Source: Flavobacteriales bacterium (GTDB taxonomy: Bacteria > Bacteroidota > Bacteroidia > Flavobacteriales_D > Sanyastnellaceae). Taken from it: a DNA stretch of 35,525 nucleotides. A program made the translations under genes and the position numbers. The notes beneath the pieces were generated by a model, which did not search any database, was not told the origin of the DNA, and saw only the letters and a program-made list of their open reading frames with translations. Position 1 is the first letter of the stretch; every line of letters starts with the position of its first letter. The DNA is taken from the NCBI GenBank assembly GCA_947442505.1, contig CANEVR010000024.1:1-35525 (forward strand), in the 5' to 3' direction. This document shows positions 1-8,120 of this stretch, one piece after another.

Positions 1-202
1 CCCGATGCGGATGGACACCTACACCCGGAGGTATATGGGATGGAGGAAAGTAATGGGGTGAATTGTAATCCAACATGATGAATGGATTCATGCGCTGCAT
101 TCCCACCATCGAGGGTATATAATTGTGGACCCTAAAACCATCACCCACCATGTGCGGTGGAGGAGGAGATAAGGCCAAATCTAAAGTTTTTATGTTTTCC
201 AT
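1..202 (-). CDS. Pirin family protein, N-terminal part (cut by left window edge)
   Basis: The minus strand is open from an ATG at 202 to the window edge, giving 67 codons. It begins MENIKTLDLALSPPPPHMVG and ends at the edge with HPHRG. The run PPGVGVHPHRG, preceded by MNPFIMLDYNSP, is the N-terminal cupin signature of pirins, where His residues of HPHRGF bind the metal. Pirins are cupin-fold iron proteins; some act as quercetin 2,3-dioxygenases and others as redox sensors or regulators, so the exact role is open. The start lies one base after the TAA of the upstream repeat-protein gene (204-539), so it is almost certainly co-transcribed with it and with the 3-hydroxyacyl-CoA dehydrogenase gene. 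About three quarters of the protein lies outside the window. Confidence 0.88.
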   Translation of the reverse strand, partial: MENIKTLDLALSPPPPHMVGDGFRVHNYIPSMVGMQRMNPFIMLDYNSPHYFPPSHIPPGVGVHPHR

Positions 203-203
203 G

Positions 204-539
204 TTAATACATCAAATGCATTTTGCTTTTGTCTCTCCATCCCGCCTGATGCGCGTAGGGTACAAAAAATATTTTGAGATTCGCTTGATGATCATATTGA
301 ACAAAAAAGATTTTCTTTTGCGCTTGATGGTCATATTTTACAAAATACCAAAGGCCATTGTTGTCCTTGGCTTGATGATCGTAATCCACTTTGAAGACTT
401 TTAAATCGGCCTGGTGTTCGTATTGAACAACAAATACCTTGACGTCTGCCTGGTGCTCATATTGCACGGAAAACATTTTCTGTCCCTTTGAATCTAGGAA
501 GAAAAATGTCAATGTGATGATAGCGATGAGCTGCTTCAT
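204..539 (-). CDS. Small secreted protein of six HQA repeats (Septknot/DUF6150-like)
   Basis: The 111-residue product starts with a signal peptide (MKQLIAIITLTFFFLDSKGQ), followed by six copies of a motif of the form F-x-V-x-Y-[ED]-H-Q-A-x-x-K-[VI]. HQA occurs at residues 29, 42, 55, 71, 84 and 97, so the period is 13 residues with one 3-residue insertion after the third copy. The regular short beta-strand pattern matches what I recall of the Pfam 'Septknot' (7(1) septoil knot, formerly DUF6150) family, predicted to fold into a deeply knotted small beta-protein; this assignment is from memory. The function is unknown. The start ATG overlaps the TGA of the upstream dehydrogenase (ATGA), which suggests translational coupling, and the stop is one base from the pirin start. 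Confidence 0.8.
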   Translation of the reverse strand: MKQLIAIITLTFFFLDSKGQKMFSVQYEHQADVKVFVVQYEHQADLKVFKVDYDHQAKDNNGLWYFVKYDHQAQKKIFFVQYDHQANLKIFFVPYAHQAGWRDKSKMHLMY

Positions 540-1663
540 CTGGTGCGTTGAATGAGTCCACTACTGGCGCGATATCTGTCCTCCTGATAATGTTCCATGA
601 GTTGGTTCAAACGTTGATGCACGTTTTTAAATCCCCATTCATTTCCCCAAGCAAACAATCCTTTGGGATAATTCACCCCTTTGGTCATGGCCAAATCAAT
701 GTCTTCTTCACTGGCCAAACCCAAATAATGGGCATCACAAGCCTCGTTGATCAACATGCATAAAATACGTTCCTGGATGAAGGTTGCTTTTTCAGCGGTT
801 AATTCAACAGCAGGGCAACCGGAGGGATAAGAATAAAATCCACGACCTGTTTTTTTTCCCAACCATTTGGCTTCAACCAATTTCTTTTGGGTAATGCTGG
901 GTTTGAAACGGGGGTCAAAGTAAAAGGCTGAGAACACGCTTTCTGTGACGGCATAATTGACATCGTGTCCAATCAAATCCATCAATTCAAATGGGCCCAT
1001 CTTGAATCCTGCCATGCGCATGGCGGCATCAATCTCTGGTTGTGAAGCCAACCCTTCATCAAAAAAGCGCAAGGCCTCACTGTAATATGGACGAGCAACG
1101 CGATTGACAATGAATCCAGGCCAGTCCTTGGCCAATACTGGAACTTTCTTCCAGGCCGTCATGAGGTCTTTTAATACAACCGGTATTTTTTCGTCAGTCT
1201 GTGTAGCAGGTATGATTTCCACCAAAGGCATGATAGTGGCAGGATTGAAAAAATGCAAACCAACGACACGCTCTGGAAATTGACATACCGATGCGATGGC
1301 CGTGATGGAGAGCGAAGATGTATTGGAAGCCAAAATCACTTCTTTGTCTAACAAGGCATCCAAGGCCTGAAACACACTTTGCTTGACATCCATTTTTTCG
1401 ACAATGGCTTCAATGATGAGTCCACAACCGATGAAATCATTGGTTTGGGTTGATGTTACAATATTCGCAATGACTTGTTGACTTTGTTCTGCTGTGAATT
1501 TGCCTTTCTCAACCAATTTGGCCAAGCCACCATTGATTTGATCTGTAGCTTTGATCAATTGCGCTTCTTGAATATCGACCAATACAACTGCATGTCCTGC
1601 TTGTGCTGCAACCTGAGCAATACCTGCGCCCATGGCGCCACCGCCCAAAACCCCTATCTTCAT
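536..1663 (-). CDS. 3-hydroxyacyl-CoA dehydrogenase (3-hydroxybutyryl-CoA dehydrogenase type)
   Basis: This enzyme oxidises or reduces 3-hydroxyacyl-CoA with NAD(H) in beta-oxidation, butanoate or phenylacetate metabolism. The N-terminus carries the Rossmann nucleotide motif GGGAMGAGIAQ (residues 7-17). The 3HCDH signature HFFNPATIMPLVEI lies near residue 136, with the catalytic His in HFFNP and the Glu in VEI, and GFIVNR carries the conserved Asn. At 375 residues it is longer than a minimal 282-residue Hbd, because a second, partial 3HCDH C-terminal helical domain (ERILCMLINEACDA onward, with GVNYPKGLFAW) follows the first, as in PaaH-like proteins. It is the first gene of a minus-strand operon with the repeat protein and pirin, and is divergent from the OmpA-family gene at 1722. 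Confidence 0.93.
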   Translation of the reverse strand: MKIGVLGGGAMGAGIAQVAAQAGHAVVLVDIQEAQLIKATDQINGGLAKLVEKGKFTAEQSQQVIANIVTSTQTNDFIGCGLIIEAIVEKMDVKQSVFQALDALLDKEVILASNTSSLSITAIASVCQFPERVVGLHFFNPATIMPLVEIIPATQTDEKIPVVLKDLMTAWKKVPVLAKDWPGFIVNRVARPYYSEALRFFDEGLASQPEIDAAMRMAGFKMGPFELMDLIGHDVNYAVTESVFSAFYFDPRFKPSITQKKLVEAKWLGKKTGRGFYSYPSGCPAVELTAEKATFIQERILCMLINEACDAHYLGLASEEDIDLAMTKGVNYPKGLFAWGNEWGFKNVHQRLNQLMEHYQEDRYRASSGLIQRTR

Positions 1664-4602: not shown

Positions 4603-5517
4603 TTACCAACGCGCCAATTTCCATTCCTTTTGCTGTTGTGGTGTCAAGAACGTCCACGCCAAGAAGCGGGTTTGTTTATTTCCATTGACCCATTCGATGG
4701 TCTTTTGTTGTTTTATGGGCAGGTCTTCCAAGGTTTTTTGCAGTGGAATAAAATGATCTTTTTGAGAGACCAATGTGGTGAACCAAAAGCAATTCTTGGC
4801 GTAATCCGCACTCTCCAACATCATGTTCTGAATGAATTGAACCTCTCCGCCTTCACACCACAATTCTTGGTCCTGCCCACCAAAATTCAACACAAGTGGC
4901 GCGTTTTTTTCTCCTGTTAAATTCTTGATTTTCCGCAGCGATTGTTGCTGCGCTGCTTCAGCAGAGGAATGAAAAGGAGGATTGCAAATGGTGATGTCCC
5001 AACGTTCTTGGGGCTTCATGACGCCTTTAAAAATTTGATTGGTATAAGTTTGTTGGCGCAATGCTATATGGCTCAGTGCTGTTGAATTGCGATCAATGAT
5101 TTTTTTTGCATTCGCCAAGGCGCGCGGTTCTATATCCGTCGCCACAAATTGCCATCCGTAGCTTGATGCTCCGATGATGGGATAAATCAAATTGGCTCCT
5201 GTACCAATGTCCATAACCGTTACTGATGATGGGATTTTCTTTAGTCCCATGAGTTCAGCAATCCGATGAATGTATTCGGCTCTTCCCGGGATGGGTGGAC
5301 ACAGATAACCTTCAGGAATATCCCAAAATTGCAGACCGTAGTCTTTTTTCAAAATCGCCCGATTGAGCATTTTCACCGCTTCGGGATTTCCAAAGTCGAT
5401 GGTCTCTGTGTTGTATTCATTAACAACAACGAAAGGGTTCAGTTGCGGCTCAGCGATGGTCAGCGCTGCGAAATCATACTCCCCTTGGTGTAAATTCTTG
5501 GGATGAAATTCAGTCAT
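4603..5517 (-). CDS. rlmF: 23S rRNA (adenine(1618)-N(6))-methyltransferase RlmF
   Basis: RlmF methylates N6 of A1618 in 23S rRNA using S-adenosylmethionine. The product starts MTEFHPKNLHQGEYDFAALT, the conserved RlmF opening, and continues with NPEAVKMLNRAILKKDYGL. The SAM-binding motif I is VMDIGTGANLIYPI and the catalytic amino-methyltransferase motif IV is NPPF at residues 179-182. The RlmF-typical LNFGGQDQELWCEGGE follows. I chose the ATG at 5517 (304 residues); a TTG at 5547 would add ten non-conserved residues and deepen the overlap with the upstream gene. The remaining 8-base overlap with the SDR gene suggests coupled translation. Confidence 0.95.
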   Translation of the reverse strand: MTEFHPKNLHQGEYDFAALTIAEPQLNPFVVVNEYNTETIDFGNPEAVKMLNRAILKKDYGLQFWDIPEGYLCPPIPGRAEYIHRIAELMGLKKIPSSVTVMDIGTGANLIYPIIGASSYGWQFVATDIEPRALANAKKIIDRNSTALSHIALRQQTYTNQIFKGVMKPQERWDITICNPPFHSSAEAAQQQSLRKIKNLTGEKNAPLVLNFGGQDQELWCEGGEVQFIQNMMLESADYAKNCFWFTTLVSQKDHFIPLQKTLEDLPIKQQKTIEWVNGNKQTRFLAWTFLTPQQQKEWKLARW

Positions 5518-7682: not shown

Positions 7683-8120
7683 TCACATTGCTTTAAAGTA
7701 CAATTCTGATTCAGCCTTTCTTCTTCTTATCAAACCATTGAGGACGGCGCCATTGCCTGTAATGTGTGAGGTTTCCATCCATTGGCGTATTTCACTTTCT
7801 TTAGCACCTTGATTGATCAGGGCAAACAAGATGTCTGACCCCCCAGTATTGTAGGTATGGGAGACCAACGCGTCAAATTGATTTTGATTTAAAGGTGTAC
7901 TCACTTTCTGGAGCACTTTTCTTTCATAGGGAATCAATGCTATTTCAAACAAGTCATCGGCCTCAGAAAGGGTTATCTTATCATCTGCCTCCACTAGGCG
8001 ATCTCCTATTTGCGTATTGCCAAAGCCGATGGTCCATTTGCCGGCAGGGCATTGGTAGGCTTCCAAACGAAGTCCTTCGAATTGTTGGATGAAATTTTTA
8101 CCAGCTTGCGATGTTTTCAT
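7683..8120 (-). CDS. GH24 lysozyme (R21/phage-endolysin type)
   Basis: The enzyme cleaves the MurNAc-GlcNAc beta-1,4 bond of peptidoglycan. The 145-residue product shows FEGLRLEAYQCPAGKWTIGFG: catalytic Glu15, eight residues, Cys24, five residues, Thr30. This is the E-x8-D/C-x5-T triad of R21-type endolysins, with Cys in place of Asp. Later motifs LNQNQFDALVSHTYNTGG and GLIRRRKAESELY are typical of GH24. There is no signal peptide or signal-anchor helix, so export would need a partner such as a holin. The 53-codon two-helix ORF ending 19 bases upstream (8140-8301) is a candidate. No other phage genes surround it, so it is probably a domesticated endolysin. Confidence 0.9.
   Translation of the reverse strand: MKTSQAGKNFIQQFEGLRLEAYQCPAGKWTIGFGNTQIGDRLVEADDKITLSEADDLFEIALIPYERKVLQKVSTPLNQNQFDALVSHTYNTGGSDILFALINQGAKESEIRQWMETSHITGNGAVLNGLIRRRKAESELYFKAM

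Follow-up and report, generated by a model that had tools for sequence, protein, structure and literature searches.

What kind of protein does the gene at 204..539 of the window encode, and why does this protein repeat one short turn sequence in each of its six units? The window is the whole 35,525-nucleotide stretch of Flavobacteriales DNA analysed here. We address these questions through the gene and its neighbours, the family to which it belongs, the pattern and origin of the matching between units, and the predicted fold.

A six-unit repeat gene

The repeat gene is an ORF on the minus strand with an ATG start that encodes 111 aa. The motif YxHQA begins at residues 27, 40, 53, 69, 82 and 95 with spacings of 13, 13, 16, 13 and 13, exactly as described in the first-pass annotation, which had claimed six units with a 13-residue period and a single 3-residue insertion. 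This sole insertion sits between units 3 and 4. By inspection we agree with the signal peptide proposed there, which would cover residues 1-19 and leave a mature protein starting at Gln20. A Gln is found at the mature start in 254 of 255 relatives. Under the Q-rule described for Bacteroidetes, the Gln exposed by signal peptidase I is converted to pyroglutamate (PMC5837995), and the mature Gln start of DUF6150 proteins fits this rule. The features discussed below are:

204..539, minus strand: DUF6150 gene encoding a predicted exported six-unit repeat protein of 111 aa, stop codon at 204-206 (from the ORF, the Pfam match and the congener copy)
483..539, minus strand: putative signal peptide, residues 1-19, with mature Gln20 (by inspection and the Q-rule)
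450..461, minus strand: unit 1 code YEHQ, residues 27-30
411..422, minus strand: unit 2 code YEHQ, residues 40-43
372..383, minus strand: unit 3 code YDHQ, residues 53-56, followed by the 3-residue insertion
324..335, minus strand: unit 4 code YDHQ, residues 69-72
285..296, minus strand: unit 5 code YDHQ, residues 82-85
246..257, minus strand: unit 6 code YAHQ, residues 95-98
536..1663, minus strand: 3-hydroxyacyl-CoA dehydrogenase (HBD) gene, overlapping the repeat gene by ATGA; a genus-local neighbour outside the system
2..202, minus strand: pirin gene, truncated where the window ends, 1 base past the repeat gene; a genus-local neighbour

The protein matches Pfam PF19647 (DUF6150) well above the curated cut-off (E 7.5e-25, 87.2 bits vs 27, profile positions 4-98 of 98), which was the profile check suggested at the outset. 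Together with a copy in a congener that is 97% identical, this match indicates on sequence grounds that the repeat ORF is not a chance reading. The annotation had likened the protein to the Septknot (7(1) knot) family; the DUF6150 match and the fold match to Q9PR55 given below agree with this likeness, and the name in the Pfam entry is DUF6150. Neither 'septknot' nor 'DUF6150' was found in the open-licence full texts searched. Given the signal peptide seen by inspection, the protein would be exported, and it may be highly stable in the periplasm or at the cell surface.

Distribution of DUF6150 genes

Of 60 close relatives, 18 have a DUF6150 gene. The counts are 51 of 114 for genomes in the taxonomic family, 205 of 399 for the order and 20 of 395 for genomes drawn from the phylum (19 of them above the cut-off), and 14 control genomes had none. 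The window's genome, which is 96.7% complete, has a single copy. A scan of GTDB contigs gave at least 443 relatives, from among which 80 loci were used, and a scan of IMG/VR with the family alignment gave 16 relatives. A tblastn search of phage and plasmid sequences, with the mature protein of the window as query, yielded no match, and PHROGs and NCBIfam held no convincing family for it. One relative (L018, 985-1701, minus strand) carries a DUF6150-like repeat of YAYE units lacking a signal peptide. Read by eye, it runs on into a linker rich in Ser, then a probable membrane helix and finally an SH3b-like end, so larger membrane proteins may contain the repeat too.

The gene neighbourhood is local to the genus

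The annotation had the repeat gene translationally coupled to HBD and abutting pirin, and the layout agrees: its start codon and the stop codon of HBD overlap (ATGA, 539-536), and a 1-base gap lies between its own stop codon and the pirin ATG. The window copy of pirin scores below the Pfam Pirin cut-off (E 1.9e-4, 21.9 bits vs 26.1) because the gene is cut at the window edge; the full copy in the congener G002 is 94% identical over the part present in the window. G002 and G003 share the order HBD-repeat-pirin with the window's genome. In G001, HBD is joined directly to pirin and the repeat gene lies elsewhere; in both G001 and G004 the repeat gene is flanked by a sigma-factor gene on one side and an epimerase-like gene on the other (names assigned by eye). 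HBD gave no match at E 1e-60 in G004 (64% complete), G005 (60% complete), G006, G241 or G430. Across 110 loci, some with just 1.5 kb of flank, no cluster of neighbouring genes occurred in more than 6, and Pfam assignment of 10 of the 67 close same-strand neighbours gave mixed families. The conserved gene order asked about in the annotation is thus not supported: the order is local to the genus, and G001 departs from it. In the window itself, an ORF on the minus strand at 7683-8120 that resembles a phage-type lysozyme by eye also adjoins a sigma-factor gene.

These loci bear on whether the repeat protein could be a functional part of the HBD-pirin operon, in fatty-acid or redox metabolism. The ATGA overlap, the 1-base spacing and the shared order in G002 and G003 speak for such a role, as does a distant pirin, approximately 25% identical to the full G002 pirin, that follows the gene at two loci from another family (L103, L104). 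However, HBD and pirin occur together apart from the gene in G001, the G001 and G004 copies lie in other surroundings, and no neighbour cluster recurs, so we give an operon role very little credence. The gene thus moves from locus to locus as a single unit, and the genes around it offer no hint of function.

Most proteins repeat a turn code of their own

Most relatives repeat a tetrapeptide of their own in all six units. In the window protein this is YEHQ or a near variant; elsewhere we observe YESQ, YENQ, YASQ, YESR, YKSD, SKYD, AEYK, ADYK, AAYQ, SEYS, SEWQ, SEWK, QSYN, RESY, NQAY, VASR, DKYN, YKYD and others. Our final set holds 257 distinct proteins, of which 2 with an incomplete unit were dropped to leave 255, with four distant code-less proteins kept; an earlier count had left out 5 of 219, namely one whose units were not all complete and the four distant code-less proteins, chosen by hand for that lack of a code (two of L114, L113 and the second of L126). 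We found that the triplet at offsets 0, +2 and +3 is the same in all six units of 181 of the 255 proteins and in at least 5 units of 211, among which there are 21 different triplets, so that the family uses at least 20. When whole units were dealt randomly among proteins, the mean number of fully matched proteins was 0.2 and the maximum 3.

Unit identity at the three positions is 0.86, 0.85 and 0.84 within a protein vs 0.42, 0.26 and 0.36 between proteins (weighted, 255 proteins). Offsets -5, -3, +5 and +6 behave in the opposite way, with identities of 0.62-0.77 per unit between proteins and 0.08-0.34 within a protein. Offset +1 is partly matched (0.59 within vs 0.23 between proteins), and offsets -4, -2 and -1 are matched slightly.

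A six-unit match is missing in 74 of the 255 proteins. Relatives from viral contigs carry one triplet throughout in only 2 of 10 distinct proteins, and among the relatives with the weakest E-values (1e-30 to 1e-10, including two viral-contig proteins) 1 of 8 is fully matched. Matching therefore belongs to the main group of relatives and does not extend to all DUF6150-like proteins. Relatives were retrieved with a profile (A1) made from 16 proteins whose units match or nearly match, which favours that kind, and the trend of matching with E-value means that this bias can act on the counts. Two groups of viral contigs are of separate note: in L239-L246 the units are unmatched and the strand pattern is kept by eye, making them a natural contrast group, and L233 and L234 carry YKYD in six units near 5001-5273 of IMG/VR contigs of 344,634 and 348,222 bases.

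The conserved His-Gln-Ala that the annotation offered as a metal or ligand site is not supported in the family. The triplet YHQ is found in 5 of the 211 proteins with a clear triplet; Ala is common and Gln frequent, and His is one of many states, which makes a family-wide His metal site unlikely.

The main rival reading is that the triplets line a six-fold symmetric binding site for an ion, a small molecule, a glycan or the symmetric surface of a partner. A change of triplet would then be a change of specificity, with the knot as a rigid frame. Several observations are in line with it. Paralogs with different codes lie side by side, as YESQ and AEYK in L075 and YKSD and ADYK in L182 and L183, and larger sets of two or three adjoining paralogs, each internally matched or nearly so, occur in L184 (RESY, NQAY, RESY), L185 (NQAY, VASR, RESY) and L186 (NQAY, RESY). 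L200 and L139 are identical at 63 of 74 positions outside the code and differ at 18 of 18 code positions, and the six His of the window protein could hold a metal. On the other hand, triplets are fairly stable in some genera, such as g20, where 8 of 9 loci carry AEYK and the ninth, a second copy in G552, carries YENQ, although genus g4 has three triplets (YSQ, YNQ and AYQ). Additionally, no conserved partner gene was seen in the 110 loci, and the composition of the triplets, described below, resembles the filling of a volume. We consider a symmetric binding site possible but on the unlikely side; it could also be compatible with a packing role for the same residues.

Matching is better explained by selection than by DNA homogenisation

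Equal units could also arise without any selection on the match itself, if gene conversion or slippage homogenised the repeats in the DNA. Identical codons at equal unit positions are slightly more frequent than in shuffles (0.526 vs 0.507, with a maximum of 0.519 in 200 shuffles), and this excess, largest in L070 (0.77 vs 0.60), is what homogenisation would produce; we read it as a trace of shared origin or of rare conversion. Other features of the genes run against homogenisation as the cause. Positions a few codons away from the code remain unit-specific, third-base agreement at the code positions is close to expectation (0.601 observed vs 0.587 expected), and among the 84 proteins with six Ser at +2, 37 mix TCN and AGY codons. 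In the window gene itself, codon identity between units is 0.417 observed vs 0.436 expected.

Code changes can be followed in pairs of relatives. L025 and L046 represent the same locus, as neighbours c115-c118 are shared, and differ by N to S at six units. Five of these changes are AAY to AGY and one is AAC to TCT, out of 15 differences in 92 residues overall. Similarly, 12 of 92 residues separate L187 from L199, and half of these differences are the N to S changes of the six units. A tree built on the 62 columns outside the code requires at least 48 code changes, a rough figure given the low resolution of the tree, in which 11 of 201 inner branches are starred. The codon choice and the separate point substitutions in L025 and L046 argue against gene conversion. 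On these codon data, selection acting on individual residues accounts for the matching better than homogenisation of the DNA, which we regard as a most improbable explanation by itself.

Predicted fold and relation to the 7_1 knot

The structure prediction proposed in the annotation gave confident models. With AlphaFold2, the mature window protein together with 77 relatives reached a pLDDT of 92.8 and a pTM of 0.79, and the relative L075 with a different code (AEYK) reached 95.7 and 0.84; the alignments behind the two predictions have most rows in common. For each of the two proteins, 2 of 5 models had pLDDT <41. In both predicted structures, the units are modelled as a short strand plus a turn, and it is the turn that holds both a 3-residue helix and the code residues.

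In a Foldseek search, four chains of Q9PR55 from Ureaplasma ranked at the top, although with E-values of 0.013 to 0.12 and an rmsd of approximately 10 A. VIA-align superposed the window model on Q9PR55 over 60 residues (25-84) with Z 6.2 and an rmsd of 2.1 A, and the L075 model over the same 60 residues (25-84) with Z 6.7 and 1.8 A; by the guidance of VIA-align itself, a Z below 8 alone is middling. Among the 164 and 116 PDB chains compared for the two models, only Q9PR55 entries reached Z of at least 2. The identity in the aligned part is 20-22%, and within its aligned range 1-82 the window model holds 22 more residues than Q9PR55, roughly one unit plus the insertion. Sequence searches of PDB sequences by phmmer and by profile for a link to Q9PR55 gave chance matches or none, and a viral structure library gave no match (best E 0.29). 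The 7_1 knot of Q9PR55 is, to our knowledge, the most complex protein knot solved to date. The aligned stretch of Q9PR55 (25-84) covers its published knotted core, 27-83 (PMC9278004).

These models support a Q9PR55-like fold for the window protein, and the matched-turn repeat protein is probably knotted, with 5_1, 7_1 and 9_1 as candidate knot types. An unknotted fold would require that the models reflect a preference of AlphaFold or a memory of known structures. AlphaFold can indeed misjudge topology and ignores the barriers to chain passage (PMC10672856), and the low-scoring models point the same way. Against this, two proteins with different triplets agree in secondary structure and have Q9PR55 as their one PDB match, though from mostly overlapping alignments, and the knot of Q9PR55 was itself first predicted and then confirmed by crystallography (PMC13352647, PMC11223836). 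We judge an unknotted fold to be improbable.

A proposed closed ring of matched turns

The triplets also follow a rule of composition. Exactly one F, W or Y is present, at 0, +2 or +3, in 18 of the 21 consensus triplets, where shuffling gave a mean of 10.0 and reached 18 in 18 of 20,000 shuffles. The earlier 214-protein set gave one aromatic in 18 of 20 triplets (3 of 20,000 shuffles) and in 1256 of 1284 units. Counted per unit in the final set, one F/W/Y is found in the code of 1455 of 1530 units, none in 49 and two in 26. L056, with YYQ in five units and SYQ in one, looks like a step between S-Y-Q and Y-S-Q layouts. The triplet thus appears to combine an aromatic, a small and a longer polar residue that can exchange places but stay equal across units, as in a packed symmetric layer.

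We favour, as a fairly probable reading, that the window protein is an exported single-domain DUF6150 tandem repeat with a Q9PR55-like fold whose six turns are matched because they pack in a closed ring. Each 13-residue unit would form a short strand and a turn holding the 3-residue helix, and the chain would most likely wind twice about a common axis in the fashion of a (2,q) torus knot. We propose that this double winding brings the six turns together into one closed, pseudo-symmetric layer. There, every unit would pack its residues 0, +2 and +3 on their equivalents in other units, so that the units must match. Once one unit had changed, the remaining five would come to take up the same substitution. 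That the six turns pack on each other in this way, and hence must match, is probable; the knot type and the ring contacts are inferred.

A chain that passes twice round, with the termini in the seventh place, would set the turns in the order 4-1-5-2-6-3. This order was derived from geometry ahead of the counts, though the first sequences had already been seen. Several shared deviations in the first set were in line with it. The enlarged set contains the first; in it, predicted pairs took up 10 of 20 double deviations, where the single deviations lead to an expected fraction of 0.30 (P 0.049), with 3 of the 20 coming from a code-less protein; pairs at separation 3 alone account for 7 of 20 (P 0.10). 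Correlations at offset +1 rank the path 4-1-5-2-6-3 only 328th of 360. The counts give a hint of this ring order only.

Repeat knots require p and q to be coprime (PMC10598012), and nine-crossing knots are mentioned for the AlphaKnot database with no family named (PMC11184937). A bolder version of our reading, which we hold to be doubtful, is that six-unit DUF6150 proteins are natural torus knots one winding beyond Q9PR55, possibly 9_1. The triplet would then be an evolvable six-fold symmetric code giving at least 20 interchangeable cores, each of which might have a ligand or a self-recognition of its own.

If the turns do form such a ring, mutants with mixed units should misfold or lose stability. 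An obscure family would in this way become a natural test of how symmetric knots evolve, and its hundreds of natural members with co-changing triplets provide direct material on how deep knots fold and persist. As judged from the codon data, the family is also a clear case of repeats matched by single-residue selection more than by DNA homogenisation.

Comparison with known systems

The PF19647 entry describes DUF6150 as a 'Family of unknown function', and its text has nothing that we saw on a knot or on the matching of units, which the family of the window protein displays. We likewise found no description of the unit-matching rule in the titles and opening lines of abstracts of the open-licence literature on Q9PR55 and knotted repeats; the JBC 2024 paper on Q9PR55 lies outside this scope and may discuss its repeats.

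The closest known structure is the 7_1-knotted Q9PR55 (PDB 8IWA, 8IWB, 8JRM), of which all 60 residues from 25 to 84 align with both models at approximately 2 A. The differences are the low identity, the lack of a link by sequence search and the 22 additional residues of the model. A small uncharacterised protein with a predicted 5_1 knot, P73136, was paired with Q9PR55 by Brems et al. (PMC9278004). Designed kcTRP proteins also form (2,q) torus knots from equal repeats (PMC10598012); these are helical, designed and built from 3 or 5 repeats, whereas DUF6150 proteins are natural, are modelled as strand-and-turn and have six units. Finally, the stacking of identical residues from successive repeats is known from the asparagine ladders of leucine-rich repeats and amyloids (PMC4877655, PMC7556116). 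Such ladders use asparagine or glutamine, whereas in DUF6150 the set of residues varies from protein to protein, mostly in all six units together.
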